A stretch of 64,000 bases of DNA from an uncultured Bacteroidales bacterium (GTDB taxonomy: Bacteria > Bacteroidota > Bacteroidia > Bacteroidales > WCHB1-69), in the NCBI GenBank assembly GCA_905235135.1, contig CAJOKR010000020.1:62001-126000 (forward strand), written 5' to 3'. Below, in pieces: positions 5,794 through 54,649 of the stretch (the stretch's first letter is position 1; each line of letters starts with the position of its first letter). Made by a program: the position numbers and the translations under genes. Below the pieces are notes generated by a model that was given only the letters and a program-made list of their open reading frames with translations, was not told the DNA's origin and searched no databases.

Positions 5794-5840
5794 AAGGTTT
5801 AAGGTTTAGGGTTTAAGGTTTAAGGTTTAAGGTTTAAGGG
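5794..5840 (+). repeat. Heptamer tandem array (GGTTTAA)n directly after the yicC stop codon
   Basis: ggtttaa/ggtttag units, 7-bp period, read directly. Confidence 0.9.
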
Positions 5841-5902
5841 GTTGTAGGGTTTCGGAATGAATGATATTACATTGTTCATTGTACATTGTAAATTGAATTA
5901 AA

Positions 5903-8604: not shown

Positions 8605-8712
8605 TTTAGGGTTTAAGGTTTAAGGTTTAAGGTTTAAGGTTTAAGGTTTAAGGTTTAAGGTTTAGGGTTTAAGGTTTAAGGTTTAAGGTTTAGGGTTTAG
8701 GGTTTAGAGTTA
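8602..8712 (+). repeat. Heptamer tandem array (GGTTTAA/GGTTTAG)n overlapping the miaB stop region
   Basis: About 14 heptamer units counted by eye; begins tag-tttaggg-tttaagg. Confidence 0.92.
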
Positions 8713-8727
8713 ATGGCCAAAAGCTAA

Positions 8728-9832: not shown

Positions 9833-11224
9833 TCATTGCTCCCGATGCCGTAACTCTATAACAATTTGCGGGTACTTCTCCTGCAAATGTTTAGCAGTAC
9901 GTTCAGCAAAATAGACCGAGCGGTGCTGGGCGCCCGTGCAGCCGAAATTGACCGTTAGGTGGGTGAACTTGCGCTCTAAGTAGTTGTCCACCGACATGTC
10001 CACTAACGCACATACGTGATTCACAAAGGTTTCCACCTCCTGATATTGCTCCAAATACTCCTTTACGCAGTCGTCTTTGCCAGTGAAGGTGGCATACCGC
10101 TTCTCGCGACCTGGGTTGGGCAGGGCGCGACAGTCGAAGATGAAACCGCCGCCGTTCCCGGAAGGATCCTCCGGAACCCCTTTCTTGAACGAGAAACTCT
10201 GCACCGTGACCGTCAGCACATCCGGATTTAGCTTGGCGGGCTCCACATAGCTGTCCACCACGGTCTGTAGCACGTGCCGCAGATCGGGCAGGTTGGCCGG
10301 CAGCGCCTTCTGCTGCAGCAGATAGCGCATGTTACGGATGGCATACGGCACGCTCTGGAGGAAGTGCGTTTTCCGTTCGAAATAGCCCCGATAACCGTAT
10401 GCGCCCATCGCCTGCATAATGCGGATGAGCGAAAAAGCGTTGAAGTAGGCCTTGAACTGCTTACGATCCACCGAAATGTACTGGGAAAGGTTATCCAGAT
10501 AGCATTCCAGCAGTTCCTCGCGAATTTCGGGGGAAAGGTCGGCCTTCGCATCATACAGCAGCGAGGCAATATCGTACTGCAGCGCCCCTTTTCTGCCGCC
10601 CTGATAATCGATGAACCAGACATCATCCTGATAAACCATGATGTTCCGCGACTGGAAATCCCGATAGAGGAAAAAGTCGTCCTCAACACTGAGCAAATAG
10701 TCCATAAACTGCTGATAATCATCCTCCAAAAGCTGCTCATTGAAGGGGATGTACGCCATCTTGAGGTAGTAGTATTTGAAATAGTTGAGGTCCCACTGCA
10801 TCGACTGCCGGTCAAAGGCAGCGCGAGGGTAGGCCACCGACATGTCCAGCCCCTCTTTTGCGGTCATCTGGAACTTGGGCAGAGCTGCCACCACTTTCCG
10901 ATAATCGTCCATAACCTCTTGGAAATCACCACCATTCTTCCTCACTTCACACAGCTTGTCATACAAGGTTTGCGTCCCGAGGTCATTCAACAGATAGTGT
11001 TTTTCGTCCTCGTGAACGGCAATCAAAGTAGGGACGTTCAGCCCTTTCCCAGCGAAGAAGCGGGTGTATTCGAAGAAGGCACGATTTTCTGTAACATCTT
11101 CATTATAAGCACCTATCAGCGTGCTATTGTCGCCAAAGGTGAAGCGGTAGTAGCGTCGATGCGAGCCAGATTGCGCCAAAGGGACGCAGGAGGTGGGATT
11201 TTGGGCGGCGTGCGCAGTGGCCAT
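9833..11224 (-). CDS. APH/AmgK-like phosphotransferase fused to a RapZ C-terminal domain; ORF extends to 11329 through a repeat element, so the start is uncertain
   Basis: Kinase motifs 'SGSHRRYYRF', 'LYRDFQSRNIMV', 'FIDYQGGRKG'; C-terminal 'GCTGAQHRSVYFAERTAKHLQ...IVIELRHRE' as in RapZ; no N-terminal RapZ P-loop. Confidence 0.88.
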   Translation of the reverse strand: MATAHAAQNPTSCVPLAQSGSHRRYYRFTFGDNSTLIGAYNEDVTENRAFFEYTRFFAGKGLNVPTLIAVHEDEKHYLLNDLGTQTLYDKLCEVRKNGGDFQEVMDDYRKVVAALPKFQMTAKEGLDMSVAYPRAAFDRQSMQWDLNYFKYYYLKMAYIPFNEQLLEDDYQQFMDYLLSVEDDFFLYRDFQSRNIMVYQDDVWFIDYQGGRKGALQYDIASLLYDAKADLSPEIREELLECYLDNLSQYISVDRKQFKAYFNAFSLIRIMQAMGAYGYRGYFERKTHFLQSVPYAIRNMRYLLQQKALPANLPDLRHVLQTVVDSYVEPAKLNPDVLTVTVQSFSFKKGVPEDPSGNGGGFIFDCRALPNPGREKRYATFTGKDDCVKEYLEQYQEVETFVNHVCALVDMSVDNYLERKFTHLTVNFGCTGAQHRSVYFAERTAKHLQEKYPQIVIELRHREQ

Positions 11225-11246: not shown

Positions 11247-11323
11247 CCCCACACTGCGCTTCGCTTGTGTGGGGTTATTTGCGCTTCGCGCGTGTTGCCT
11301 CTTCGAGGCTGCTCAAGGAAATT
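11247..11323 (-). repeat. Composite multi-hairpin element (family B, copy 1), overlapping the 5' extension of the phosphotransferase-RapZC ORF
   Basis: CCCCACAC..GTGTGGGG + GCGCTTCGCGC + GCCTCTTCGAGGC + tgctcaaggaa. Confidence 0.85.
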
Positions 11324-11373: not shown

Positions 11374-11433
11374 CCTAAACCCTAAACCTTAAACCTTAAA
11401 CCTTAAACCTTAAACCTTAAACCTTAAACCTTA
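11374..11433 (-). repeat. Heptamer tandem array (coding orientation GGTTTAA) abutting the rodA stop codon
   Basis: aaaccttaaaccttaaacctt... directly downstream of rodA on its own strand. Confidence 0.9.
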
Positions 11434-12687
11434 ATTATCATTCAATTTGATGAAACAGAACAGCATGATGGTGAAGGACCAGAGGGAGGAACCGCCGTAG
11501 CTGATGAAGGGTAAGGGGATGCCGATGATGGGCAGGAGGCCGGTGGTCATGCCGATGTTGATGAAAAAGTGGAAGGCGAGGATGCCTGCTATGCCGTACC
11601 CGTAGTAGCGTACGAACGGATTTCGCTGTTTCTCAGAGAGTTTCAGGATGCGGAAGATGAGGGCACCGAAAAGTCCGAAGACTACCAAAGTGCCGAAGAA
11701 ACCCCATTCCTCGCCGATGGCACAGAAGATGAAGTCGGTGCTTTGCTCGGGTACGAAGTTGAGCTTCGTCTGCGTGCCTTTCAGGTAGCCCTTGCCGAAC
11801 AAGCCGCCCGAGCCGATGGCGATTTTCGACTGGTTGAGGTTGAAGTCGGCACCCAACGGGTCGGAAGTTTTGCCCATGATGGTGTCAATACGCTGTTTTT
11901 GGTGCGGTTCGAGGCCGTGCTCATATAGGAAGTTGACGGAGAAAACGAACGCGACACAGGCCAAATAAACGATGACGTTGCGGCGGTATTTCTTCTTCTG
12001 GGTGCGGTTGGCAATCATGAAGGCGATGAAAACCGCCGTGATGATGGCGATGGAGTAGGTTTCGTTGAATTTCAGCGTGATGAAGGCGATAATGCCCGCA
12101 ATGATACCGAGTACTAAAAATTCCGCACTCAACCCCTCGCGGTAGAAGAGGATGATGAAGGAGAAGAAGACCAGTGCGGAACCCGCGTCGTGCTGCAATA
12201 GCGCCACAATGATGGGGATGAAGACCAACCCGAATTGCGCAAGCCACACGTAGCGGCGTTGGTTGGCGGTCTTGCCCTCCTGCATGAACTTGGCCAAAGC
12301 CAAGGCCGTGGCCACCTTCATAAACTCCGTGGGCTGTATGCTGAAACTACCGATTTTGATCCACGACTTTGCACCGTTGATTTCGGCCCCGATAAAGATT
12401 ACGAGTACCATCAAAAATAGGCAGAAGAGGTAGAAAAAGTAGGGATAATGCTGTATTATTCCACTGTCTATCAGTAATATAACAATAGCTAAAAGGATAG
12501 AGGTCCCAATCCAGATCATCTGTTTGCTGTAGGGTTGCCCGAAGTCGAAAATCGGGGTGGAACCGTCGGGGATGTAGCAGGTGGAATAGATGGTGATCCA
12601 GCCGATGATGACCAGCGCGAGGTAGTAGCAGATCAGCCGGGCGTCAAAACCCTTGGACATCTTATTGTATGGTTCTAATTTCGGCAT
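11431..12687 (-). CDS. rodA: Rod shape-determining protein RodA (SEDS)
   Basis: Multi-TM; 'FVPEQSTDFIFCAIGEEWGFFG', 'GLLPIIGIPLPFISYGGSSL'. Confidence 0.95.
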   Translation of the reverse strand: MPKLEPYNKMSKGFDARLICYYLALVIIGWITIYSTCYIPDGSTPIFDFGQPYSKQMIWIGTSILLAIVILLIDSGIIQHYPYFFYLFCLFLMVLVIFIGAEINGAKSWIKIGSFSIQPTEFMKVATALALAKFMQEGKTANQRRYVWLAQFGLVFIPIIVALLQHDAGSALVFFSFIILFYREGLSAEFLVLGIIAGIIAFITLKFNETYSIAIITAVFIAFMIANRTQKKKYRRNVIVYLACVAFVFSVNFLYEHGLEPHQKQRIDTIMGKTSDPLGADFNLNQSKIAIGSGGLFGKGYLKGTQTKLNFVPEQSTDFIFCAIGEEWGFFGTLVVFGLFGALIFRILKLSEKQRNPFVRYYGYGIAGILAFHFFINIGMTTGLLPIIGIPLPFISYGGSSLWSFTIMLFCFIKLNDN

Positions 12688-15586: not shown

Positions 15587-16105
15587 TTAAACGGTTAGGA
15601 TTTCGTCGATGGGGCGGTCGTGGGGTTCGGAAGGAGGGACCAGCTGGAAGTCGAAACAGAGACCGAGGGTGGGCGTTTGCGGGTGCTGAGCTAAGAAACG
15701 GTCGTAATAGCCGCGACCACGTCCCAAACGGTGTCCTTCGCTGTCGAAAGCCATACCAGGCACCACAATGAGGTCGAAAGCGCCGGTATAGGGATTGTTT
15801 TGCGGTTCGGGGATGTGGAAGTCTCCCTCCGCAAAGGGCGTATTATCAGCCAGTTCCACCGGGATGATGTCATCACCGACCACGGTGGGCAGGATGATGG
15901 TCTTCCGATGGCGCCATTCCTCAATGAACGACAGTGTTTGCACTTCGTCAGGTAGGGAGGCATAGAGCATCACCCTTTCGGCAGCGAGAAAGCGCGGATG
16001 GGAAGCCAGCTTTTGCAGCACCGCCTCCGACTGCTTTTGCAGCTCTTCCGGGGTATGCTGTTTCTTGGCGATGCGGATTTGTTGGCGGAGGTCTTTTTTG
16101 TTCAT
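15587..16105 (-). CDS. 5-formyltetrahydrofolate cyclo-ligase
   Basis: 'MNKKDLRQQIRIAKK' start; 'DLIVVPGMAFDSEGHRLGRGRGYYDRFLA' signature. The ORF-track start at 16204 lies in repeats. Confidence 0.93.
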   Translation of the reverse strand: MNKKDLRQQIRIAKKQHTPEELQKQSEAVLQKLASHPRFLAAERVMLYASLPDEVQTLSFIEEWRHRKTIILPTVVGDDIIPVELADNTPFAEGDFHIPEPQNNPYTGAFDLIVVPGMAFDSEGHRLGRGRGYYDRFLAQHPQTPTLGLCFDFQLVPPSEPHDRPIDEILTV

Positions 16106-16120: not shown

Positions 16121-16336
16121 CCCCACACTGCGCTTCGCTTGTGTGGGGTTATTAGCACTTCGTGCGCCCCACACTGCGCTTCGCTTGTGTGGGGTTATTA
16201 GCACTTCGTGCGCCCCACACTGCGGCTTACGCCTTGTGTGGGGTTATTAGCACTTCGTGCGCCCCACACTGCGCTTCGCTTGTGTGGGGTTATTAGCACT
16301 TCGTGCGTTTTGCCCCTCCGGGGCTGCTTAAGGAAG
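16121..16336 (-). repeat. Composite hairpin element (family B, copy 2) with a four-unit tandem array of about 46-48 bp
   Basis: Four consecutive CCCCACAC...GTGTGGGGTTATTAGCACTTCGTGCG units, then GCCCCTCCGGGGC and tgcttaaggaagt. Confidence 0.93.
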
Positions 16337-31858: not shown

Positions 31859-34800
31859 ATGAGGCGGATATTGGTCATATTATGGATGTTGTGTTTCGGT
31901 TTGCTCTCCGCGCAGACTTACCATATCGGGGATGTCTATACCGCGCCGGATGGCAGCCAGGGCATCGTCTATTATCTCCACCCCGACGGCAGTGGCGGCT
32001 GGGTGGTGGCCCTGAATGATGCCTCTGTGGGATGTCCATGGGGTGATGACTCCGATGTGCCGGGACTCGTCAATGTTACCTCTTATTATTCCCAATACAC
32101 GTTGGCCGACACGGCAGGATATTCCAATACACAGACATTGCGCAACTATCAGAACAACAACACGACTTACGCCGCCGGCAAAGTTGATTTCGATAATGGG
32201 TGGGTGCTGCCCTCCGTGTCGCAGCTCCTCATGCTGTATGGGCAGCTGCCTTTCATCTCGTCCGCCCTCACGGGAGCTGGAGGTACGGAGATGGTGGATG
32301 AAGCGTATTGGACTAGCACAGAGAAAGATGCATCATCTGCTTATATTGTTTATTTCAGTTTTGGTTATTTGAATGATGACATCAAAACCAATCCATACCA
32401 TGTCCGTGCTGTGCGTAGCTTCACCAATGAGCCAAACTACCTTTGGAGCACCGGAGACACGACTTCTACCATCACTGTTACGCCATCGCAGACCACCGAA
32501 TATACGGTGACCGTGACCAGTCAATGGGGCTGTACTGGAACAGCATCGAAGGTCATCACAACACTGACACCCATCTCAACCAGTACTCACTATTTTCTCT
32601 GTGATAACGCTTCTGACACGCTTACCGCCCGCGAGGCCGCCTCCTATCAATGGAGTACGGGCGACAGCACGCGCTCTGTCATGATAACGGACGCGGGATT
32701 CTACCTCGTGACCGCCACCTTAGCCGGAGGAGAATGTCCGGTGGTGGATACCTTCAAGGTGACGAACGTGAAGGTGAACGGCATTTCGGACATCAGCATT
32801 CCTGAAATGTGTGCCGGCAACAGTACTACCGTCACTTTGGGCACCGATGCCATCTGTAATGTGACCTTGGTGACCTACGAAACCATTCTGGCACTGCATG
32901 ATACGGTATTCCTGCCCGACGGGGTTGAATGTGAACCCTATGGCTGCTCCTACCAGTCGCCGTTGACGTTTGCCGGTTATGCGGATACCGCCCATGTGAA
33001 CAGTGTCAATGATATTCGCTATCTCCGAATCAATATGGAGCATTCATACGCGGGCGACCTTTACATCAATCTTACCTGTCCAAATGGGCAAAAAGCGGAT
33101 ATTCTGCGATGGGGATACCAAATTTATTCGTCGGATTGTGCTTCACAAATCTCAAATGCTTCATTTGGGTGGCAAAGTGATGAGGAAGGCGTTTACAATT
33201 CACCGATGAGCACCGATTTTGGGTTAGCCAATAAACCAAGTGATTCAGAATTCCCATGTGATCCTGACCGGACTAAAAATGCATTTGGAACAGGGTGGGA
33301 TTATTGTTGGTCAAACAATACCAATCAAGGATATACATACGCAGACGGAAACGGCAGTTTGATATATAGAAGCTGCAATTCCCAAAATTACGGCTCCTTC
33401 TGGAATTCTTTGTATATTTTTGATTCTTCCGATGTGGTTGCAGGCACTCAGTTTTACCATCCTGATGAATCGTTTGAGAGTCTTATCGGTTGTCCGCTGA
33501 ACGGTTCCTGGTACATTGAGGTTATGGATGGGAACAACATTGATAATGGCTACATTTTCGGGTGGGAGTTAGCTTTGGCTGAGGACATCCAGACTATCGA
33601 ATATGCCGATGTGGTGCATACTGTGGTGGAAGGTCCGTGGGTGACCGCCATTTCAGACTCCTCCTTCCTTTTCTCGCCGCCCGCCGATCTACCTCACGAC
33701 ACGGTAGTGGACTATCTTTTCCACTGCTACAGCCAGTTCGGATGCGGCTACGATACCTTGGTGAGCATCTCCATTATTGCCCGAAAGTTTGTCGAAAGCG
33801 ATACTTTAGTCTGCGATAGCTTTGTCTGGAATGGAGTCACATACACCGCTGACACCACCCTTTCGGATACGCTGACGGGCATCCATGGTTGTGACAGCAT
33901 TGTGACCGTTTACGTGCATATTATCACCTCTCCAACCGTCACCATTTCAGGTGCTCAGTACATCTGTGCTGATTCCTCTGTTATCCTGACTGCCAGCGAT
34001 GCGCAATCCTACCTTTGGAGCACCGGCGACACCACGCAGACCATCACGGTCAGTGAGCCGGGAATCTATACGGTTACGGCTACCTTTGTGGGCGGCTGTA
34101 CTGCTGAATCGGCTGAATTCCAACTGTTTGAGTCGGTGAGCCCCATTATTGGCGCGCACCTCTCCGATATGGTGGCTGGCGATACGCAAACCGTGGTCAT
34201 CGGCACCTCAGTGGATGCCAACCTCCAATACGCCAATGCACCTTCCACCGTTACCTATTCGAACATCACCTTCCTGCCCGACGGTGTGCCTTGCGATACT
34301 CTCGGCTGTTCCTACACGGCGGAAATGGTCTTTACGGACTTTCCCGATACGGCGGTCATCCATTCGGCGGAGGAAATCCGCTACATCCGCCTGAATATGG
34401 AGCATTCCGCCCTTATAGACCTCTACATCAACCTCACTTGTCCGAATGGCCAACAGGCGGATATATTGAAGAAATACGACGGAAACAGTTCTTCGGAGTG
34501 CTCTGGCTACATTGGCAATTCGCACAGAGGCTGGCCGAGTGGAAATGTCCAAAGTGTCTATGGCTCTCATTATCCGCATAAGATGACATGGCTAGGGGAA
34601 CCGAATACTTCCAATTCGAATAATAATTCCAGTTTTCCGTGTGACTCCTCGAAAAACAAACCTGGGGTTGGGTGGAACTATTGCTGGTCGAACAACACCA
34701 CCGAAGGCTATCAGTATGCGTCGGCGAACGGAAGTCTGATGGATACCAGCAACGCTATTCTCTATTACAACAATGGGGTCGTGGCATTGAGCAATTTGAA

Positions 34801-37800
34801 AAAAATAGTCATCGATTCCTCCAATTTTGCGGCCGGCACACAATTCTATCATCCGGATGTGTCGTTTGACAGTCTGGTGGGATGTCCGATCAACGGCACT
34901 TGGACGGTTGAGGTGATCGATGGTATCTCCAGTAACAACGGTTATATTTTCGAGAGCGAGTTGTCTTTTGCGAATTATCTTCTTGAAGACCACGTTGTTT
35001 CGGTGATTCAGATGGACTTTGATTCCCTTTGGGTCACCCAGATCAACGATTCGGTTTTCATCATCACCCCGCCGGACACGTTGGCCAATGATACCACGGT
35101 GACCTATACCTTCACGTTGATTGACGAAAATGGATGTGTTTTTGACACCACGGTGACCATCACGATATACGCGCACAAGCATACGGTGCTCTACGATACG
35201 ATATGCTTGGGCGACACCCTCGATTTCAACGGTCAGCTGCTTACCCAGGAGGGTGTCTATTACGATACCATCCATACGGTGATAGGTTACGACAGTGTGG
35301 TGACGTTAAATTTGGCCCTCAAAGCATTGTTGGAGGTAAGCATAACTGCTTCTGTTGACACGACTTGCGCGGGCGTTCCGGTCACATTGCAGGTAAGTGC
35401 CTCGGACAACCTGATGGCCTACCTTTGGAGCACGGGCGATACTACCGCTTCCATCACCGTTGTGCAGGAGGAGAATACGGACTATTCGGTGACCGTCACG
35501 TCCACCTACCAATGTACGGGTGCCGCTTCCAAAACCGTTGCCGTTGGGGAACTTTTCCCGATGAGCACATCGGTTTACATTTGCGAAAGCACTCCCGATA
35601 CGCTCACCGCTCGCGAGGGGGATGCCTTCCTTTGGAGTACTGGCGACACCACACAGTCGATCGTGGTTTCGGACGTGAATATCTATATGGTGACAGTTTC
35701 GTCCGCATCCGATTGCCAGGTGGTGGATACATTCAAAGTGATTTCCGTGCAAATTAGCGAGATTCCACACGTTGAGATTCCGGAGATGTGTGCCGGGGGC
35801 AGCTATCCCATCGTGGTGGGGAATAATGTCATCAGCAGCCAGACCTCCATTACCCACGAAACCATCCATTCGATTCACGATACCGTCTTCCTGCCCGATG
35901 GTGTCTATTGCGAACCTTACGGCTGTTATTACAGTGTTCCTTTCGCCTTCACCGGTTATGCGGACACGGCCCATGTGAACAGCGTCCAGGACATCCGTTA
36001 CGTGAGAATCAACATGGAGCATTCGTATTCCAGCGACCTTTACATCAATCTAACTTGTCCCAACGGACAGAAAGCGGATATTTTGAGATGCGGAGGCACC
36101 TATATTGCGTCCCTGCATTCGGAATGCAGCGTCAATATACCGCTAAATTCATTTGGTTGGCAGTTGGGGATGGGGAATAATACTTCGGCGGACACTCGTT
36201 TCGGATTGCCATACCAGAACAATGATATTCCCGACAATTATCTATGTGATCGTACCTATCCTGAAAACGTACCGGGAGTGGGATGGAATTACTGCTGGTC
36301 GCAGAATGATAACTACTCATACGCGGGTGGTGACGGCAGTTTGATTTATCGGAATGAAAATGCCCATTATGCCATTCCAGGTAATAAATCGTTTGATTCC
36401 TCGAACGTGGCCGTTGGGTCGCAATTCTATCATCCTGATGATTCGTTTGACAGCTTGGTCGGATGTCCGTTGAACGGTGTTTGGCACATTGAGGTGATGG
36501 ATGGAATGGATACCGAGAACGGCTATATTTTCGAGTGCGAGTTAGCGTTGCCTGAGGATATACAGACGGTGGAATTTGCCGATGAGGTGCAGGTTGAGGT
36601 GGAAGGTCCTTGGGTGACAGCCACTTCCGACTCTACGTTCGTATTCTCCCCACCCGTGACATTGTCTCATGACACGACCGTCAACTACAGTTTTCACTAC
36701 CATAACCAGTTCGGATGCAGCTATGACACGGTGATTGAAGTCAACTTCTATGCCCGTTATATCGACACCCTGTCGCTCAGCGCCTGTGACAGTATTGTCT
36801 GGAATGGGGTCACTTATACGGCTGACACCACGCTGACGGACACGCTGACCTGCATCCATGGTTGCGACAGCATCGTGACCGTAAACCTGCATGTGACTCC
36901 CACCTCTCCCGTGACCATCAGCGGGCCCCAGTTCTTCTGTGCCGATGCGGAGGTCACGCTTACCGCCAATGTTGAGATTGAGCCGTTGTCCTACCTTTGG
37001 AGCAATGGCGCCACTACTCCGACGATCACGGTCGGCGATGTGGGCGTCTATTCGGTTACGGCTTTCTATGCGGATGGCTGCACTTCCGAATCGGCTGATT
37101 TCCTGCTACAGGAGGCTCAGAATCCGATAATTGACGCGCACCTCTCCGATATGGTGGCTGGCGATACGCAATACCTGGATCTCACCCTCCAGCCTGACGC
37201 CAGCATCGATTTGATGCTGCTACAAGGCCCTTGGGCGATAATTCATCCAGACACGACCTTCACTGTCACCCCGCCAGACACTCTGGAAAACGACACCTTA
37301 GTGACCTATACGTTCACATTGATTGACACGAATGGCTGTTCCTTTGATACGGTAATCCACATCACGGTATATGCCCACAAGCATACGGATCTCTACAATA
37401 CGATATATGCCTCGGAACTGCCATACAGCTGGAACGGATTGACATTTACGCAGGCGGGTTGCCAAGATACGCTGTTCCTTACCACACACGGTGCCGACAG
37501 TCTGGTTACCATGCATCTTTCGGTCAAATACCCGTATGATACCACAGTTTGTGAGAATCAGATTCCGTTGTATTGGCATGGCCAGACGTTCATCAGTACT
37601 GCTTCTGTCACCATTTCCCATTCCTTGGGTTGTGCCGACAGCATTGAGGTGATTTCGGTATCGGTGCATCCGGTTTACCATGACACGACCGAATATACCA
37701 TCTGCGCTAACGAACTGCCGTATCTGTGGCATAATCAAGAGATTAGCACCTCCGGAACCTATTACGATTCGCTGACCTCCTCGTTCAATTGTGACAGTAT

Positions 37801-40800
37801 CTTTATGTTAGTGTTAACTGTCACAGATACCTCATTCATAGAACTTTACGACACGGTTCTGCAGAACGATCTGCCTTATCCGTTGAATGATGAGGTTTAC
37901 GACACGACCGGTGTTTATGTGCAGCATAAAGAGAATGCTGCGGGTTGTGACAGCCTTATCACGCTCCATCTGACAGTGCTCTATAATGTGCGGACAGAGC
38001 TGGACAGCACGGTCTGCGACAGTCTGCTGCCGGTTATATGGAATGATATCACGTTCCAAGAAACCAGAGTCGATTCTGTTGTGCTGATTGCCGCGAATGG
38101 TGTTGACAGCACGGTGGTGATGCATTTGACGGTGAACAGTTCGACAAGTGAGACACAAGTAGTCGGTATCGTGGAGAATGACCTTCCTTATACCATCAAT
38201 GAGGTTACATACGATTCTGCCGGCACCTACGTGCAGCATCTGACCAATGCCGCCGGTTGCGACAGTGTGCTGACTATCCATCTGCTTGTAGATACCAATA
38301 GCATTTCCTACCGCACTGCGATGATTTGTCAGAATATGCTGCCTGCCGTATGGGAAGGTCACGTATGGACCGAAGCCGGGGTTGTCGTTGACACGTTTAC
38401 AGCGGTTTCCGGTGCGGATAGTATTGTGGTGAAGACCTTGAATGTGGGATTGCCCACCACGAGTGAGATTTACGATACCATAGTGCAGAATAATTTGCCG
38501 TATGTTTTGAACGACAGTATTTACTATGTCCCAGATGATTACGTGCAGCATCGGATCAATGCCGCCGGTTGCGACAGTACTATTACACTCCATCTGACAG
38601 TGTTTTATAACGTGCGGACGGAGCTGGACAGCACGGTCTGTGACAGTCTGCTGCCGGTCGTTTGGAACGATATTACATTCACGGAGGCAGGTGTGGATTC
38701 GGTCACATACCAGGCCGCCAGCGGGGCGGACAGTGTTGTGGTGATGACTCTAACGGTAAAGGAATCGTCAGACAGTTTGCTGGTAATCAGCGAAATAGAG
38801 AACAACCTTCCATACATCATCAATGGGTTTGAGTACGATTCTACGGGAGTTTATGTGCAACATTTGGACAATGCGATGGGTTGCGACAGTACCCTCACCA
38901 TCGCGTTGACGGTGCTGTACAATGTGCGGACGGAAGTGGATAGTGCGGTGTGTGACAGTCTGTTGCCGATTCTCTGGAATGATGTGGAATTTACAGGTGC
39001 AGGTACGGATTCCGTTACGTTGACTGCCTCCACGGGGGTCGATAGTACGGTGGTGATGACCCTGACGGTGAATTATCCAACAGCCGCGACCTTTGCGGAC
39101 ACTGTGCTGGAGAACAATTTACCGTCATATCAGCTGAATGGGTTCCATTATGACACAGCGGGCACTTACATCCAGCATCTGACCAACGTGAATGGTTGTG
39201 ACAGTGTGTTGACGTTACAACTGACTGTCCTCTATAATGTTACATCCGAAGTAGATTCCACCGTTTGCCCGAATGAGCTGCCCTTTACGTGGAACGGCAA
39301 AGTGTTTACGACTGTCGGGACACAGACGGCTATGCTGACTGCCGCCAACGGGGTGGACAGCATCGTGACTATGACGTTGTATTTGTTCCCGAGTCCGAAT
39401 GCCCACATCACTGGTCCGGAAGTGCTGTGTGCCGACAATTTTGCGGTGCTTGTTGCCGATAGCGCCACCTCTTACTTGTGGAGTACTGGCGATACCACTC
39501 AGACTACAAATGTCTATACTATCGGTGTTTACAGTCTGACGGTCACGAACGAGTATGGCTGTATCGCTACCGACTCCTTGCCTTTGACTGAATCCGTTAC
39601 CGTGAACCCCATCGAATACTTCCAGTTTCCAGACCTTTGTGCCGGCAACGACTATTCCATCACAGTTGGTCACCAGAGTACATGCACCATCGTTTTGGAA
39701 AATCCCGTATCGACGCTTTCTTGGGCTGATACCGTTTTCCTGCCCGACGGGGTCTATTGTTCGCCTTACGGTTGTTCCTATCAGTCACCGCTCACGTTCA
39801 CGGATTTCGCGCCTGGATCGACGGTGAGTTCCGTCAATGACATTCTGTACGTTCGTCTCAACATGGAGCATTCCTACGCGAGCGACGTTTATATCAACTT
39901 GACTTGTCCAAATGGGCAGAAGGCTGATATTCTGAAATTTAAAGGTCACAGTAGTAGTACTTTTGATGGACCGTGCATGTCTGAAATCCCGCTGACATCC
40001 AGAAATTGGCAAAACGGGAACAACGCAAGCGGCAGCACCTTCTTCGGTATGGCTTACGACCATTCTTCACAGGGAAATAATGCTTGTAATCCCAATACCT
40101 ACGATAATGCTCCTGGAATAGGGTGGAATTACTGCTGGTCTAACAACAATGACCAAGGTTATACCTACGCCCCGGGTCAGGGCAGTCTGGTTTACAGAGC
40201 GGTCAATGCCCATGAACATACCAATCCTTATTATACTTTTTGGAATGGCGAAGCACATTATGTGGACATCTTTGATTCCTCCAATGTGACGGCAGGAACG
40301 CAGTTTTATCATCCGGACCAGTCATTCCAAAGTCTCATTGGGTGTCCGTTGAACGGCTCTTGGTATATCGAGGTCATTGACGGGACGAATGAGGATAACG
40401 GTTACATCTTCGAATGGGAGCTGGCGTTGGCTCCGTATCTGGTCCCCACCTCATTTTCAGATGTGACACTCGTTACGGTGGACGGTCCATGGGTAACCAC
40501 CCTTAGCGATACGTCATTCCTTTTCTCGCCGCCCGACACGCTCGAACACGATACGGTGGTAGCTTATACCTTCCACTTACAAGACCAATATGGTTGCGGC
40601 TACGATACCACGGTCTATCTTAATGTTTATATGCAGAGTAATACGGTCTTCGACACCACCGTTTGCGGCAGTTTTGTGTGGAATGGGACGACCTACACGC
40701 AGAGTCAGGAAATCACGTGGAATGGGGTCAACGTGCATGGTTGTGACAGCACGGTGGCCATCAATCTGACGGTGTATCCCATACCGACAACGACTATCTC

Positions 40801-42826
40801 AGGTCTGCCTGTTCCTTGCGTTGATGATACTGCGCATCTTACTGCCGTTTGTGCAGACACTGCTGCCCTTCTCGTCTGGAGTACCGGCGATACGGCGCAA
40901 ACCATTACGGTAACCTCATCTGGCGACTATGGTGTCACAGCTACAAACCCAAAATGCAGCTACGACGCAACGGTCTCTGTCGAGTTCACCAGTCCGACCT
41001 ATTCAACGGTTGAGGACACCGTTTGTGACAGTCTCCTTTGGAACGGAACCCTCTACACCCAAACGGGCGTCTATATGGACACGCTGATAAACAGTGTTGG
41101 TTGCGATAGTATTATAGCACTCAATTTGACAGTACTTTACAGCTCTATTACATACGACACATTGCTTCTGATGCAGAACCAGCTGCCGTATTATTTCGCG
41201 CCGTTGGATACCACTTTCCCGGTTGGGTCGCCGGCGGAGTTCCAGTTCAGCTATACCTTCCCGGCTCAGAACGGTTGCGACTCCGTCATTATGGAGAAAG
41301 TGTATGTCTTTATGAACTATTCGTTTGCCTTCGATACGACCGTTTGTGCCGATGCGTTGCCGTTGCAATGGCATGGGCACACGTTTGCGGGGGCAGGTAC
41401 GATTACCGATTCGCTGCAAACAGTGCATGGTAGCGATAGTGTGCTGACTTATACCGTGACTGTGGATGCCCTTAGCGCGACTATCGGCAACGTAACCCAT
41501 ATTAACTGCTACGGTGAGAGTACAGGTGCGGCTACGGCCACAGTCACCGGAGGAATTTCGCCGCTGGCCTACCAATGGACGAACAGTACTGGCTCTATGG
41601 TCTCTGTCACGACACAGATCAGCAACCAGCCGGCGGGAGATTACACGTTCACGGTCACAGATAATGTGGGATGTTCAGCCACCGCCACGGTGACGCTTAA
41701 CACGCTTCATGGGCAGATGTCACCTGGCACTATTTCCGGTCCGCAGACGCTATGCTACGGTGATACGCTCGGACAGGTCAACGGTACCGCGGCTACCGGC
41801 GATGAGTGCACTTATCAATGGCAGATTTCTACCGATGGCAATACGTGGACTCCGGCTGCCGGCACCAACAACACCCAGAACTATACGCTTCTCACGCCCG
41901 CCACCAGCGACTTTCAGCTGCGTCGCGCTTGGATTGGCGGGGCTTGCGGCACCTTGTATAGCGATACGTTAACCATTGCGGTCTGGCCGGTCAGCAGCGA
42001 CACGATTTACGATGAACTGTGCGAGGGACAACCCTATCAGCAACACGGTTTCGACATTTCCGGGGCGGAAACGATGGGACATGACAGCTTGACGTTCGTG
42101 GAACATTACACCAGCGTGAACGGTTGCGACAGTGCGGTGACTCTTATGCTGACCATCCATAAACCGCAGGAGACGAACCTCAATGTCGAGATTTGCGAGG
42201 GAGACGGCTACTATGGGAACGGGTTTGCGATTCCCGCGTCGGAGACCGTGGGTGCGGACAGCCTGATGCGCGTCCTGAACCTGCAAACGACCGACGGTTG
42301 TGACAGCATCGTGCGGTTGGAGGCTACCATCATCGACACTGCGCTGCGCATCGAAAACCTCACCCCCGACTTCTGTGAAGACATGCAGGCTGAGTTGGTG
42401 GTGGTGACCAACATGACCGACTACGTATGGAGCACGGGTGAGCAGATGCCGAACATCACGGTGATTGCGCCCGGCATGTATATGGTCACGGCCTCGCAGG
42501 GAGAATGCAGTGTCAGTGCGAGATACGTCATCGAACCTTGCATTTTCGAGCTATATCTGCCCAATGCCATCTCGCCCAGCCGCACAGATGGTCTGAACGA
42601 CTACTTCAGCATCTCGGAACATGCGCAAGGGATGATCAACTTATTCGAAATCAGTATCTTCAACCGCTGGGGTGAGCTGGTGTTCTATTCCAACAACAAA
42701 GGTTTCCAATGGAATGGAGAGGTGAATGGCCAGATTTACTACCAGAATGTTTATAATTACGTTATTGAATACACCGACAGTGCGGGACGCCCGTATAGGG
42801 TGACGGGTACGATTACGGTGCTGTAA
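31859..42826 (+). CDS. Giant modular surface protein (3655 aa) with an N-terminal DUF1566/FISUMP-like domain, Ig-like modules, four P-domain-like modules, Cys-containing tandem modules and a T9SS type B (gliding-motility-associated) C-terminal domain
   Basis: Signal peptide MRRILVILWMLCFGLLSAQ; repeated 'YLWSTGDTTQTITV', 'INMEHSYAGDLYINLTCPNGQKADIL', 'GCDSIVTLHLTV'; C-terminus 'LPNAISPSRTDGLNDYFSI...FEISIFNRWGELVFYSNN...YNYVIEYTDSAGRPYRVTGTITVL'. Confidence 0.93.
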   Translation: MRRILVILWMLCFGLLSAQTYHIGDVYTAPDGSQGIVYYLHPDGSGGWVVALNDASVGCPWGDDSDVPGLVNVTSYYSQYTLADTAGYSNTQTLRNYQNNNTTYAAGKVDFDNGWVLPSVSQLLMLYGQLPFISSALTGAGGTEMVDEAYWTSTEKDASSAYIVYFSFGYLNDDIKTNPYHVRAVRSFTNEPNYLWSTGDTTSTITVTPSQTTEYTVTVTSQWGCTGTASKVITTLTPISTSTHYFLCDNASDTLTAREAASYQWSTGDSTRSVMITDAGFYLVTATLAGGECPVVDTFKVTNVKVNGISDISIPEMCAGNSTTVTLGTDAICNVTLVTYETILALHDTVFLPDGVECEPYGCSYQSPLTFAGYADTAHVNSVNDIRYLRINMEHSYAGDLYINLTCPNGQKADILRWGYQIYSSDCASQISNASFGWQSDEEGVYNSPMSTDFGLANKPSDSEFPCDPDRTKNAFGTGWDYCWSNNTNQGYTYADGNGSLIYRSCNSQNYGSFWNSLYIFDSSDVVAGTQFYHPDESFESLIGCPLNGSWYIEVMDGNNIDNGYIFGWELALAEDIQTIEYADVVHTVVEGPWVTAISDSSFLFSPPADLPHDTVVDYLFHCYSQFGCGYDTLVSISIIARKFVESDTLVCDSFVWNGVTYTADTTLSDTLTGIHGCDSIVTVYVHIITSPTVTISGAQYICADSSVILTASDAQSYLWSTGDTTQTITVSEPGIYTVTATFVGGCTAESAEFQLFESVSPIIGAHLSDMVAGDTQTVVIGTSVDANLQYANAPSTVTYSNITFLPDGVPCDTLGCSYTAEMVFTDFPDTAVIHSAEEIRYIRLNMEHSALIDLYINLTCPNGQQADILKKYDGNSSSECSGYIGNSHRGWPSGNVQSVYGSHYPHKMTWLGEPNTSNSNNNSSFPCDSSKNKPGVGWNYCWSNNTTEGYQYASANGSLMDTSNAILYYNNGVVALSNLKKIVIDSSNFAAGTQFYHPDVSFDSLVGCPINGTWTVEVIDGISSNNGYIFESELSFANYLLEDHVVSVIQMDFDSLWVTQINDSVFIITPPDTLANDTTVTYTFTLIDENGCVFDTTVTITIYAHKHTVLYDTICLGDTLDFNGQLLTQEGVYYDTIHTVIGYDSVVTLNLALKALLEVSITASVDTTCAGVPVTLQVSASDNLMAYLWSTGDTTASITVVQEENTDYSVTVTSTYQCTGAASKTVAVGELFPMSTSVYICESTPDTLTAREGDAFLWSTGDTTQSIVVSDVNIYMVTVSSASDCQVVDTFKVISVQISEIPHVEIPEMCAGGSYPIVVGNNVISSQTSITHETIHSIHDTVFLPDGVYCEPYGCYYSVPFAFTGYADTAHVNSVQDIRYVRINMEHSYSSDLYINLTCPNGQKADILRCGGTYIASLHSECSVNIPLNSFGWQLGMGNNTSADTRFGLPYQNNDIPDNYLCDRTYPENVPGVGWNYCWSQNDNYSYAGGDGSLIYRNENAHYAIPGNKSFDSSNVAVGSQFYHPDDSFDSLVGCPLNGVWHIEVMDGMDTENGYIFECELALPEDIQTVEFADEVQVEVEGPWVTATSDSTFVFSPPVTLSHDTTVNYSFHYHNQFGCSYDTVIEVNFYARYIDTLSLSACDSIVWNGVTYTADTTLTDTLTCIHGCDSIVTVNLHVTPTSPVTISGPQFFCADAEVTLTANVEIEPLSYLWSNGATTPTITVGDVGVYSVTAFYADGCTSESADFLLQEAQNPIIDAHLSDMVAGDTQYLDLTLQPDASIDLMLLQGPWAIIHPDTTFTVTPPDTLENDTLVTYTFTLIDTNGCSFDTVIHITVYAHKHTDLYNTIYASELPYSWNGLTFTQAGCQDTLFLTTHGADSLVTMHLSVKYPYDTTVCENQIPLYWHGQTFISTASVTISHSLGCADSIEVISVSVHPVYHDTTEYTICANELPYLWHNQEISTSGTYYDSLTSSFNCDSIFMLVLTVTDTSFIELYDTVLQNDLPYPLNDEVYDTTGVYVQHKENAAGCDSLITLHLTVLYNVRTELDSTVCDSLLPVIWNDITFQETRVDSVVLIAANGVDSTVVMHLTVNSSTSETQVVGIVENDLPYTINEVTYDSAGTYVQHLTNAAGCDSVLTIHLLVDTNSISYRTAMICQNMLPAVWEGHVWTEAGVVVDTFTAVSGADSIVVKTLNVGLPTTSEIYDTIVQNNLPYVLNDSIYYVPDDYVQHRINAAGCDSTITLHLTVFYNVRTELDSTVCDSLLPVVWNDITFTEAGVDSVTYQAASGADSVVVMTLTVKESSDSLLVISEIENNLPYIINGFEYDSTGVYVQHLDNAMGCDSTLTIALTVLYNVRTEVDSAVCDSLLPILWNDVEFTGAGTDSVTLTASTGVDSTVVMTLTVNYPTAATFADTVLENNLPSYQLNGFHYDTAGTYIQHLTNVNGCDSVLTLQLTVLYNVTSEVDSTVCPNELPFTWNGKVFTTVGTQTAMLTAANGVDSIVTMTLYLFPSPNAHITGPEVLCADNFAVLVADSATSYLWSTGDTTQTTNVYTIGVYSLTVTNEYGCIATDSLPLTESVTVNPIEYFQFPDLCAGNDYSITVGHQSTCTIVLENPVSTLSWADTVFLPDGVYCSPYGCSYQSPLTFTDFAPGSTVSSVNDILYVRLNMEHSYASDVYINLTCPNGQKADILKFKGHSSSTFDGPCMSEIPLTSRNWQNGNNASGSTFFGMAYDHSSQGNNACNPNTYDNAPGIGWNYCWSNNNDQGYTYAPGQGSLVYRAVNAHEHTNPYYTFWNGEAHYVDIFDSSNVTAGTQFYHPDQSFQSLIGCPLNGSWYIEVIDGTNEDNGYIFEWELALAPYLVPTSFSDVTLVTVDGPWVTTLSDTSFLFSPPDTLEHDTVVAYTFHLQDQYGCGYDTTVYLNVYMQSNTVFDTTVCGSFVWNGTTYTQSQEITWNGVNVHGCDSTVAINLTVYPIPTTTISGLPVPCVDDTAHLTAVCADTAALLVWSTGDTAQTITVTSSGDYGVTATNPKCSYDATVSVEFTSPTYSTVEDTVCDSLLWNGTLYTQTGVYMDTLINSVGCDSIIALNLTVLYSSITYDTLLLMQNQLPYYFAPLDTTFPVGSPAEFQFSYTFPAQNGCDSVIMEKVYVFMNYSFAFDTTVCADALPLQWHGHTFAGAGTITDSLQTVHGSDSVLTYTVTVDALSATIGNVTHINCYGESTGAATATVTGGISPLAYQWTNSTGSMVSVTTQISNQPAGDYTFTVTDNVGCSATATVTLNTLHGQMSPGTISGPQTLCYGDTLGQVNGTAATGDECTYQWQISTDGNTWTPAAGTNNTQNYTLLTPATSDFQLRRAWIGGACGTLYSDTLTIAVWPVSSDTIYDELCEGQPYQQHGFDISGAETMGHDSLTFVEHYTSVNGCDSAVTLMLTIHKPQETNLNVEICEGDGYYGNGFAIPASETVGADSLMRVLNLQTTDGCDSIVRLEATIIDTALRIENLTPDFCEDMQAELVVVTNMTDYVWSTGEQMPNITVIAPGMYMVTASQGECSVSARYVIEPCIFELYLPNAISPSRTDGLNDYFSISEHAQGMINLFEISIFNRWGELVFYSNNKGFQWNGEVNGQIYYQNVYNYVIEYTDSAGRPYRVTGTITVL
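32880..33580 (+). repeat. P-domain-like module 1 within the giant protein
   Basis: 'HDTVFLPDGVECEPYGCSYQSPLTF...GWELAL'. Confidence 0.8.
34245..34975 (+). repeat. P-domain-like module 2 within the giant protein
   Basis: 'NITFLPDGVPCDTLGCSYTAEMVF...YIFESELSF'. Confidence 0.8.
35860..36550 (+). repeat. P-domain-like module 3 within the giant protein
   Basis: 'HDTVFLPDGVYCEPYGCYYSVPFAF...YIFECELAL'. Confidence 0.8.
37840..39400 (+). repeat. Tandem alternating modules of roughly 60-70 aa within the giant protein
   Basis: Repeated 'YNVRTELDSTVCDSLLPVxWNDITF...AxSGxDSVVVMTLTV' and 'IENNLPYxINGxxYDSxGxYVQHLTNAxGCDSxLTIxLTVL'. Confidence 0.85.
39710..40435 (+). repeat. P-domain-like module 4 within the giant protein
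   Basis: 'ADTVFLPDGVYCSPYGCSYQSPLTF...YIFEWELAL'. Confidence 0.8.
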
Positions 42827-42951: not shown

Positions 42952-43662
42952 TTAGAAGGACGGAATTAGGTGCTTTTCCAAGGTAACGACATCCTCCGGA
43001 TAGGTGAGCTTCATATTGGAGACCTCGCCGGGGACGATAAAGATGGGGATTTCGGGACAATAACGGAGGAGCACGCCGCAATCGTCGGTGCTGGTGAAAT
43101 CTTTATCCTGCAGTGCTTTACGATAGGCTTCGCGAATCACGTTGAGGTGGAAGGCCTGCGGGGTTTGGGCGCAGCGCAGTCGAGCGCGGGTAGGGATTCC
43201 CGCAATGTGTTGTCCATCGTCGGTTACCTCGAAAATGGTGTCCGTAGCGGGTATCGCCACGGCTACCGCCGGATGGGACTGTAATGCCGTAACGGTTTCG
43301 TTGATAATCCGTTGGCTTACTGCTGGGCGAGCTGCATCGTGGAAGATGAGGTTCGCTTCGGTAGTGCCTTCGTAGGCGTTGAGGGCCGCGAGGGTTGAGA
43401 GGTATCTTTCCGCACCGCCGGGCAGCAGCTTACGCACCTTCTGCCAGCCGTTACGGTCGATAATCTCCTGCATCTGCGGCAGATAGTCGGGATGCATCAC
43501 CACCGCAATCTCATCGATGGCCTCGCATTTTTCGAATGCCCCGACGCTATATTCGATGACGGTTTTCCCCGCCAACGGCAGGAACTGCTTCGGCAGCGCA
43601 GATCCGAATCGCTGCCCGCTGCCACCGGCGAGGATGATGGCTATGTTTCGTTGTTTCTTCAT
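42952..43662 (-). CDS. ispD: 2-C-methyl-D-erythritol 4-phosphate cytidylyltransferase
   Basis: 'IAIILAGGSGQRFGSALPKQFLPLAGKTVIEYSV', 'IFHDAARPAVS', 'STDDCGVL'; start moved to MKKQRN. Confidence 0.95.
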   Translation of the reverse strand: MKKQRNIAIILAGGSGQRFGSALPKQFLPLAGKTVIEYSVGAFEKCEAIDEIAVVMHPDYLPQMQEIIDRNGWQKVRKLLPGGAERYLSTLAALNAYEGTTEANLIFHDAARPAVSQRIINETVTALQSHPAVAVAIPATDTIFEVTDDGQHIAGIPTRARLRCAQTPQAFHLNVIREAYRKALQDKDFTSTDDCGVLLRYCPEIPIFIVPGEVSNMKLTYPEDVVTLEKHLIPSF

Positions 43663-43678
43663 TGTTTGTTCTGGACTA

Positions 43679-43768
43679 CCCCACATTACGCTCCTTCGTC
43701 GCTTATATGGGGTTAATTGCACTTCGTGCGTCTTGCCTCTTCGAGGCTGCTTAAGGAAGTTGTTTCAT
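43679..43768 (-). repeat. Composite multi-hairpin element (family B, copy 3) upstream of ispD
   Basis: ccccacattacgctccttcgtcgcttatatggggttaattGCACttcGTGCgtcttGCCTCttcGAGGCtgcttaaggaagttgtttcat. Confidence 0.88.
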
Positions 43769-43839
43769 ATTACTACCCCGCCCTTCGGGCACCCCTTCTA
43801 CAATAGAAGGGGAATTGGAGCCGCTCGTTCCTAATTCTC

Positions 43840-43885
43840 TGTTGCCTGTTGCCTGTTGCCTGTTGCCTAATGCCTGTTGCCTAAA
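43840..43885 (-). repeat. Heptamer tandem array (TGTTGCC/TAATGCC) abutting the YitT stop codon
   Basis: tgttgcc x4, taatgcc, tgttgcc; 7-bp period. Confidence 0.9.
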
Positions 43886-44827
43886 CTACTCCGTCGGCAG
43901 TGCCTTGAACCCCTGTCCCATGATTTCCGCGCTGTCGATGACGTTCACGAAGGCGGTGGGGTCGATGTGGCGGATGTTGTTTTTCAGCTTGACGAGGTCG
44001 GTGCGCTCCAGCGAGACGTAGATCATGCTGCGCTCGGTGCCGGCGTAGAGGCCTTGGCCGAGGAACAGCGTGCCGCCGCGATGGAGGTCGTTGAGGATGT
44101 AGCTGCGCATGGCCTCCACGTTGTCGGTCACGATATAGACCGTCTTGTAGCTCTTCATGCCCTCCACGATGAGGTCGATGACCTTGCCCTCGATGTAGAT
44201 CAGGATGATGGAGTAGATGGGTAGCCGGATCTGTTTGAAGGCGATGAGGGTGGTGAGGGTGATGACGGAATCGACGATCATCACCAGCTTGCCGAGGGAG
44301 ATTTTCGTGTATTTGTGGATGATCATGGAGATGATGTCGCTGCCGCCGGAAGTGGCGCCCGACTTGAAAATCAGCCCGATAGCGATACCGTATATGATGC
44401 CGGCGACCACCGTATTCAGGAAGTAGTCGGGGATGAAGAACAGATCGCTATGCGGGATCTGCACCATAGTGGGCATGGTTGCCGCATCCACAATGCCTTC
44501 GTGAATGACGGGGTTGTAGCCCCAGAAAGTCTCCATCACCCAGGTGAATGCGAAAATCAGGATGGTGGAAAGGATGGTCTTGAACCCGAACTTGGGACCG
44601 AGAATCCAGGTGCCGATAAGGAGCAGCGGGATGTCCATGCAGATGGCGTAGTAACTGATTTTCCACGGCCACACGGTATTCAGCACGTTGGAAAGACCGT
44701 AGGTGCCGCCGGGGGCCAGCAGGTAGGGGTTGACAAACATCACGTCGCCGACTGCAAAAAGGAAGCTGCCGGCAATCAGCATCAAGTATGCGATAATCTG
44801 CTCTTTAGCATTGTTTTTCTGTCTCAT
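43886..44827 (-). CDS. YitT family membrane protein (DUF161 + DUF2179)
   Basis: 'GGTSGGSDIISMIIHKYTKISLGKLVMIVDSVI', C-terminal 'RGGTLFLGQGLYAGTERSMIYVSLERTDLVKLKNNIRHIDPTAFVNV'. Confidence 0.93.
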   Translation of the reverse strand: MRQKNNAKEQIIAYLMLIAGSFLFAVGDVMFVNPYLLAPGGTYGLSNVLNTVWPWKISYYAICMDIPLLLIGTWILGPKFGFKTILSTILIFAFTWVMETFWGYNPVIHEGIVDAATMPTMVQIPHSDLFFIPDYFLNTVVAGIIYGIAIGLIFKSGATSGGSDIISMIIHKYTKISLGKLVMIVDSVITLTTLIAFKQIRLPIYSIILIYIEGKVIDLIVEGMKSYKTVYIVTDNVEAMRSYILNDLHRGGTLFLGQGLYAGTERSMIYVSLERTDLVKLKNNIRHIDPTAFVNVIDSAEIMGQGFKALPTE

Positions 44828-53838: not shown

Positions 53839-54327
53839 ATGAAAAAGCAACTTTTCCTTTTGACAGCCCTGTTTATGGGCATTACCATGCTTGGCACGGC
53901 ACAGAGTGCGATTGTGCCCGTGGGTGGAGACGCACAGTCTTCAGCCGGTTCGGTGAGTTACACCGTGGGGCAGATTGCGGTGCAAACGGTGGCCAACAGT
54001 AACGGCATTTATGTGGCCGAGGGCGTGCAACAGCCATACGAGATTCAAGCTGTGGGCGTGGACAACTATCCCCAAATCGTGCTTGACGCCGTGGTCTATC
54101 CCAACCCGACGGAAAACATTGCGCAGCTGAAACTTAACGGTTTCGAGCTTCCGGCCGATGGTCTCCGTGCCACTATTTTCGACGGCAACGGCAAGATGCT
54201 GCAGTCGTTTTCTGTCACTGACGACCTGACTTCCTTCCAAATCGGCCAGTACGCCACCGGAACCTACTATCTTGAGGTGAAAGATGGGAAGCGGGTGTTG
54301 AAGACGTTCAAAATCGTGAGGAAGTAG
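53839..54327 (+). CDS. Small secreted protein with T9SS type A sorting domain
   Basis: Signal peptide, C-terminal 'VVYPNPTENIAQLKLNG...ATIFDGNGKMLQSF...TGTYYLEVKDGKRVLKTFKIVRK'. Confidence 0.9.
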   Translation: MKKQLFLLTALFMGITMLGTAQSAIVPVGGDAQSSAGSVSYTVGQIAVQTVANSNGIYVAEGVQQPYEIQAVGVDNYPQIVLDAVVYPNPTENIAQLKLNGFELPADGLRATIFDGNGKMLQSFSVTDDLTSFQIGQYATGTYYLEVKDGKRVLKTFKIVRK

Positions 54328-54640
54328 TTTAGAGTTTAGAGTTTAAGGTTTAGAGTTTAGAGTTTAAGGTTTAGAGTTTAAGGTTTAGAGTTTAAGGTTT
54401 AGAGTTTAAGGTTTAGAGTTTAAGGTTTAGAGTTTAAGGTTTAGAGTTTAGAGTTTAAGGTTTAGAGTTTAAGGTTTAGAGTTTAAGGTTTAAGGATAAC
54501 GACATATCAATCCCCCTTAACCCTTAAACCCTCAACCTTAACCCTTAAACCCTCAACCTTAAACCCTCAACCTTAACCCTTAACCCTTAAACCTTAAACC
54601 TTAAACCTTAACCCCTCAACCTTAACCCTTAAACCAAAAA
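54325..54640. repeat. Long heptamer array with inverted halves (G-rich AGTTTAAGGTTTAG left, C-rich CCCTTAAACCTTAA right)
   Basis: Left half 54328-54497 in GTTTAAG/GTTTAGA orientation, right half about 54515-54636 in the complementary orientation. Confidence 0.93.
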
Positions 54641-54649
54641 ATAGAGATT

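Follow-up and report, generated by a model that had tools for sequence, protein, structure and literature searches.

A short hairpin repeat upstream of ispD belongs to a family of mobile elements that lies in the gaps between genes of uncultured rumen Bacteroidales. Its copies are dispersed, restricted to one genus and present or absent at orthologous sites; they are strongly biased towards the sense strand, conserve their structure in situ, and related copies flank Y1 transposase genes. We hold it probable that the element is REP-like, was mobilised by Y1 enzymes and lives as an RNA structure on the sense strand of intercistronic regions and leaders.

According to this model, the element would be a genus-specific, REP-like, non-autonomous unit of about 76–80 nt with three GNA-loop hairpins on one strand, and the family would have multiplied in uncultured rumen Bacteroidales. 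It would have moved, most likely, as single-stranded DNA by means of Y1 (HUH, IS200-like) subclass 1.2 transposases. Insertion would occur 3' of A/T-rich sites, an example being the stop codon of the gene in front, and copies would hardly ever last unless transcribed in sense, either within a leader or between a pair of co-directional genes. The RNA strand would form three stable hairpins there, maintained after insertion. The role is most likely that of a structured intercistronic or leader spacer, comparable to REPs in E. coli mRNAs; as a barrier to exonucleases or ribosomes, such a spacer could separate the fates of the upstream and the downstream message. REPs stabilise E. coli mRNAs or slow them. 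For our element, we infer both the role as RNA barrier or spacer and the direction, up or down, that an effect on ispD would take.

New here is a REP-like family that lies nearly wholly in sense between co-directional genes and keeps its hairpins by compensatory change. The question whether such repeats are parasites or parts of the mRNA becomes testable in one system, and a first element partner is offered for the orphan Y1 subclass 1.2 enzymes.

The element in front of ispD

The window, a stretch of 64,000 nt (G000:C20:62001-126000), belongs to a genome of 3.26 Mb in 118 contigs. A covariance model built from 28 copies placed the element upstream of ispD at G000:C20:105679-105760. Its parts, its neighbours and two further copies in the window are as follows:

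43679..43758, minus strand: element upstream of ispD, 80 nt (head TTCCTTAAGCAG, hairpin 3, linker, hairpin 2, linker TTAA, hairpin 1)
43748..43758, minus strand: conserved 5' head TTCCTTRAGCA with a sharp left boundary (sequence logo and pattern search)
43735..43747, minus strand: hairpin 3, GCCTC-GAA-GAGGC (GNA loop in 267 of 268 distinct elements)
43719..43729, minus strand: hairpin 2, GCAC-GAA-GTGC (GNA loop in 263 of 268 distinct elements)
43679..43712, minus strand: hairpin 1, CCCCATAT-AA-GCGACGAAGGAGC-GTA-ATGTGGGG, with a single T.G wobble (stem comparison and fold)
43663..43678, minus strand: A-rich spacer of 16 nt between element and ispD start codon (read from the sequence)
42952..43662, minus strand: ispD, ATG at 43662 (Pfam PF01128, E 2e-47)
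43759..43775, minus strand: A/T-rich, target-like left flank outside the repeat (logo), holding the ATG of a proposed uORF at 43768-43751
43773..43815, minus strand: second hairpin repeat family R2 (ATTCCCC..GGGGTGCCCGAAGGGCGGGGTAGTA), in the same gap as the ispD element (sequence)
43886..44827, minus strand: YitT/DUF2179 membrane protein gene, upstream of and co-directional with ispD (domain match)
11247..11320, minus strand: element copy upstream of gene 9833-11224 (APH-like kinase with RapZ C-terminal domain)
16121..16335, minus strand: element copy with four tandem hairpin 1-hairpin 2 units, upstream of the 5-formyl-THF cyclo-ligase gene 15587-16105

On the minus strand, the element consists of TTCCTTAAGCA + GCCTC-GAA-GAGGC + AAGAC + GCAC-GAA-GTGC + AATTAA + CCCCATAT...ATGTGGGG; the head is TTCCTTRAGCAG, and the hairpins follow in the order 3, 2, 1 with GNA loops. 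A search with the head pattern returned 75 matches, compared with 3 for the reversed control. The minus-strand RNA is predicted to fold into exactly these three hairpins (−24.8 kcal/mol, z −3.25, none of 200 shuffles as good). For the plus-strand RNA, fold prediction preferred a different fold.

All letters quoted for the element in an earlier note on this DNA were recovered on the plus strand, with CCCCACAT...ATATGGGG at 43679-43712, GCACTTCGTGC at 43719-43729 and GCCTCTTCGAGGC at 43735-43747. The wobble described there for hairpin 1 is likewise real, being a C.A mismatch on the plus strand and a T.G (U.G) wobble on the minus strand. As for the copies used for comparison, that at 11281 reads GCGCTTCGCGC as quoted, and GCCCCTCCGGGGC was given correctly in its letters but lies at 16312 instead of 16311. 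The span 43679-43768 assigned to the element has the correct left end; the repeat itself stops at 43758, and 43759-43768 are variable left flank. The close distance to the ispD ATG, given as about 17 nt, measures 16 nt.

According to the logo, the 5' end of the element is sharp at TTCC and is preceded by an A/T box of 14–16 nt with an AAA core. Directly before the element this box reads TATWWTRAAA and varies between copies. Many copies lie so near an upstream gene that the stop codon of that gene falls inside the box, and several empty orthologs at other loci already hold the left flank without the element. The sequence ATG AAA CAA CTT CCT TAA, put forward in the earlier note as a minimal uORF (MKQLP*), is located at 43768-43751 on the minus strand. 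Most of the 113 own-genome copies have no ATG at this position, and a short uORF that ends in LP* is found at the same place in only a handful, three of them with MK[QKH]LP*. The uORF was also absent from the orthologous ispD elements of genomes G012, G003, and G026. As it is conserved neither in the copies nor in the ispD orthologs, the uORF reading was dropped; the ATG is most readily explained as having arisen by chance within the A/T-rich box.

Conservation of the fold

Across 107 distinct copies of the own genome, 98.2% of the stem cells were paired. The covariation statistics over copies that the earlier note had proposed gave a clear excess of double-change stem cells, with 126 compared to 39 in shuffles and 0–4 with slid partners. 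Because related copies inflate such within-genome counts, we compared orthologs at loci with both flanks matching (62 pairs at 41 loci). Here, both sides had changed in 61 stem pairs, every one of which remained paired; 53 changes were one-sided. Partners shifted by 1–3 positions gave 0–5 paired double changes. At least one paired double change was present at 27 of the 41 loci, and with a single pair per locus the count was 39 double versus 26 single changes. The ispD orthologs of G000, G012, and G026 show double changes in hairpins 3, 2, and 1, with one wobble. The claim that paired changes reflect selection on structure is thus supported both within the genome and between orthologous copies. 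Double changes between orthologs often exchange one common family allele for another, and since the swapped arms are common alleles of the family, gene conversion among copies may have produced part of them. For known bacterial repeats of this kind, retention of the fold in situ has not been reported.

On the sense strand, G.T mispairs outnumbered A.C mispairs by 73:21 (terminal pairs excluded), which points to the sense strand as the one that folds. In most of the 268 distinct elements, the loop of hairpin 1 is GNA or GNNA (GATA, GTAA, GCAA). Such loops, when closed by G-C pairs, yield extraordinarily stable mini-hairpins in single-stranded DNA (PMC4686876). As the GATA and GACA tetraloops obey the DNA rule (GNNA) and not the RNA rule (GNRA), the loops may have been shaped by recognition of single-stranded DNA during transposition. 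In two copies (G000:C9:14369 and G000:C76:16950), the interior of hairpin 1 is inverted between intact arms.

Distribution and site occupancy

The covariance model gave 133 matches in the own genome, almost none within genes, an intergenic location and high copy number as in the REP class; about 113 of these copies were read out from stretches for copy-level comparisons. The element was found in 35 of 36 genomes of the same genus, with 1 to >80 copies each. Outside the genus, only one of 195 genomes of the order gave matches, a few weak ones (draw of 198 genomes). The family is therefore probably a recent, genus-specific expansion. Exact-pattern matches in named genomes came from uncultured Bacteroidales MAGs, mostly of ruminant stomachs. 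A record titled Synergistales (CAJOGG010000175.1) also has the element and is probably mislabelled or a contaminated bin (L358).

Among the ispD loci compared, the element is present in G012, G003, G026, G002, and G007, whereas G062, G031, G019, G033, and G034 have ispD without it. In the element-free G033 and G034, about 5 nt separate the co-directional genes yitT and ispD, which makes transcription through the element into ispD plausible on grounds of gene order. In G013, the ispD locus shares the head and first hairpin but continues with another hairpin (CCCAGGGT...ACCCTGGG). From the filled, the empty, and the G013 loci, we conclude that the element was inserted into an intercistronic junction and that its 3' modules are exchangeable. 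Further filled/empty and module-swapped ortholog pairs were found at other loci. A search of close relatives for clean empty-site junctions with target duplication yielded none, because other repeats rewrite the gaps there.

Shared heads and first hairpins with differing 3' modules were seen between L296 and L073, between L080 and L366, and at the G013 ispD locus (L124); one differing module at orthologous sites reads GCTCGGTAG..CCCAGGGT, as if modules had been exchanged in place. The copy at G000:C2:9362 (L191) is close to where a lipoprotein-like signal peptide begins, with the reading frame open across the copy (MIKIFFLEQPRRG...).

Y1 transposase genes

Four Y1_Tnp matches were detected in the own genome, the best of which lies between related elements on both sides, arranged in inverted pairs. 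Related copies also flank Y1 genes of G032, G031, and G007. At the four Y1 loci flanked by covariance-model matches, the flanking copies represent a divergent subfamily, in which hairpin 2 is replaced by an ATCT.GGTAG linker or the arms are GGTGTGG. The protein signatures are DHVH/YIARQKEHH (L089), DHIH/YIKNQKEHH (L115), and DHVH/YIKRQKEHH (L119 and L121), that is, proteins of the Y1_Tnp family (Pfam PF01797) with the motifs DH[IV]H and Y---Q--HH. The latter motif is the signature of Y1 subclass 1.2, which has been described as generally lacking typical terminal secondary structures (PMC6006769). The agreement with that subclass extends to a single domain of about 150 aa, the occurrence in Bacteroidota and the few copies per genome; unlike the published members, several of the genes found here are flanked by GNA-hairpin repeats that are dispersed through the genome.

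The number of elements, counted among the best 80 scored candidates per genome, correlated with the number of Y1 genes (rho 0.72 for 36 genomes, uncorrected for phylogeny, genome size, and this limit). Genomes lacking Y1, three in all, had 0, 1, and 3 element copies. From these genomic associations we infer that Y1 enzymes mobilised the element. Other Y1 genes of the genus are flanked by GNA-loop hairpin families of their own, for example TGTCCCGCAGGGACA (L094, L095, L096, L107, L113, L114, L118).

Placement, strand bias, and alternative explanations

In the own genome, where genes were called with a simple codon-usage caller, 87 of 113 copies sit between co-directional genes in the sense orientation, compared with 4 in antisense. 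The genus-wide set comprised 285 distinct copies, 270 of them with enough flank; 231 were sense and 5 antisense in co-directional gaps, 15 were in divergent and 6 in convergent gaps. The position upstream of a gene and on its sense strand (minus at ispD), as first described for the ispD copy, was thus borne out and extended to the genus. Copies lie a median of 39 nt from the stop codon before them and 55 nt from the start that follows; 58 begin ≤12 nt from that stop codon. Inspection of the reading frames revealed that the downstream genes (ispD, thyA, obgE, purC, ispG, nagB, and others) are functionally unrelated.

The gaps available in a sample amounted to 55.6 kb (co-directional), 18.3 kb (divergent), and 8.2 kb (convergent). 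The sense-to-antisense ratio of left-flank-like sites is only 1.7, and these sites are commonest in divergent gaps, which are poor in copies. Target composition predicts a ratio of 1.7:1, not 46:1, and was therefore rejected as the cause of the strand bias. For 231:5, the binomial p is about 1e-61 against 1:1 and about 1e-38 against the target-composition ratio, with copies that are not independent. Other intergenic repeats of the genus, sampled near elements, also show a sense bias, namely R2, sister elements, and some heptamers. The cause may therefore be common to all of them, and a sense bias may characterise such gaps in general and not the element in particular.

The foremost alternative, which we regard as unlikely but worth serious weight, is transcription-coupled insertion without function. 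An HUH transposase would take the exposed non-template strands (R-loops) of untranslated intercistronic DNA, so that copies would be sense from the start and would stay because they are harmless. This would accommodate a sense bias well above target composition, sites adjoining stop codons, where translation ends, and the sense bias of R2 and sister elements; it also agrees with the general knowledge that Y1 enzymes act on single-stranded DNA (IS200/IS605, TnpA-REP). Neutral copies, however, should lose their pairing, whereas the orthologs had 61 paired double changes versus 53 one-sided ones, unless gene conversion renews the copies. Moreover, heptamer repeats, which are not known to be mobilised by HUH enzymes, share part of the bias. 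A combined scenario, in which Y1 HUH insertion into transcription-exposed strands lays the family down in sense and the copies are then used as an intercistronic RNA module, is unlikely. If true, Y1 insertion and subsequent use would constitute a transposon-built, genome-wide layer of operon structure.

Purifying selection alone is an improbable cause. It assumes random sites and orientations, with antisense copies purged as a hindrance to the downstream gene. The near absence of antisense copies from co-directional gaps is consistent with this, but convergent gaps, where neither orientation should damage a start, contain only 0.73 copies per kb versus 4.2 per kb in sense in co-directional gaps.

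A mobile promoter, with element and A/T flank bringing in a −10/−7-like box selected upstream of genes, is very improbable, although a TATWWTRAAA box immediately precedes the element and copies sit upstream of start codons. Putative mobile promoters are similar sequences in front of unrelated genes, and our element resembles them in this respect. Unlike them, no promoter was found in the element: the box lies outside it, is already there in orthologs without the element and frequently includes the upstream stop codon. Divergent gaps, home of most promoters, are depleted (15 vs. 231 copies). A scan that does not cover Bacteroidota promoters found no sigma-70-like site near ispD, and a −33 signal was absent from the logo of the copies. 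We rejected the mobile promoter on the grounds that the A/T box is external and pre-existing and that divergent gaps are copy-poor. A cis-regulatory leader with uORF, as envisaged in the earlier note, would fit a structured leader with covariation, but riboswitch- or attenuator-like control of ispD is scarcely credible given an unconserved uORF, functionally unrelated downstream genes, no match of the window to Rfam covariance models above the gathering score, no terminator-like fold near ispD on either strand, and a presence that varies among close species.

Relation to known repeat systems

We compared the REP-like element favoured here with the REP/REPIN systems of the GTAG super-family and their TnpA-REP (RAYT) transposases (Di Nocera 2013, PMC3733652; PMC6006769). 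Both are small, extragenic hairpin repeats of high copy number with genus- or species-specific subfamilies, and both have a Y1 transposase gene flanked by related copies, in our case copies of the divergent subfamily, with inverted pairs at that gene. Unlike REPs, the element has three hairpins per unit, and its dispersed copies lie in sense upstream of genes. REPs belonging to the GTAG and CGTC super-families are reported to lie mostly behind genes and in gaps that are convergent or unidirectional (PMC3733652); dispersed copies of the element (231 sense co-directional, 6 convergent) are near an upstream stop codon but before a co-oriented gene. In place of the GT[AG]G 5' foot, dispersed copies have TTAA, ATAA, or GTAA before CCCCACAC; Y1-flanking copies have GGTAG or GGTAA before hairpin 1, and GGTAG is confined to these and to sister copies. 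Inverted pairs, too, are confined to the Y1 gene; instead of forming inverted dimers, dispersed copies occur singly or as direct tandems. Because neither the GT[AG]G foot nor the typical REP placement is found in the dispersed copies, we do not class the element as a REP; at the DNA level it nevertheless probably behaves as REPs do.

In placement, the closest published parallel is offered by the forward-oriented TAACTGA heptamers, which are also intergenic, in one orientation just before start codons, and also known from Bacteroidota (MacGregor, PMC4679880). A post-transcriptional role has been proposed for them; they differ from the element in being unstructured 7-nt tandem repeats without transposase association (PMC4679880). 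The MITEs/BrickBuilt of P. gingivalis (PMC4596501) are likewise dispersed, non-autonomous repeats of Bacteroidales; they differ from the element, which consists of hairpins, with no terminal inverted repeats seen and no minisatellite core.

Other repeats share the gaps with the element. R2 (ATTCCCC..GGGGTGCCCGNAGGGCGGGGTGGTAA) adjoins it, lies inside hairpin 3 in several copies (L208, L176, L181, L167, L172), and is oriented 36 sense to 2 antisense. Heptamer tandem arrays, separate from the element, occupy many intergenic gaps of the genus and are found in the window at 5794-5853, 8601-8716, 11380-11434, 43841-43884, and 54325-54643. Their units are TTTAAGG, TTAAACC, and TGTTGCC, with TAGTTAG, GACGTAA, TAGAATG, and AACCCAT at other loci. 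Several heptamers are sense-biased between co-directional genes, as exemplified by TAGTTAG with 55 sense to 8 antisense. The window also contains a 3655-aa open frame (31859-42826), probably for a large surface protein, in which units of about 312 and about 1400 nt are repeated.
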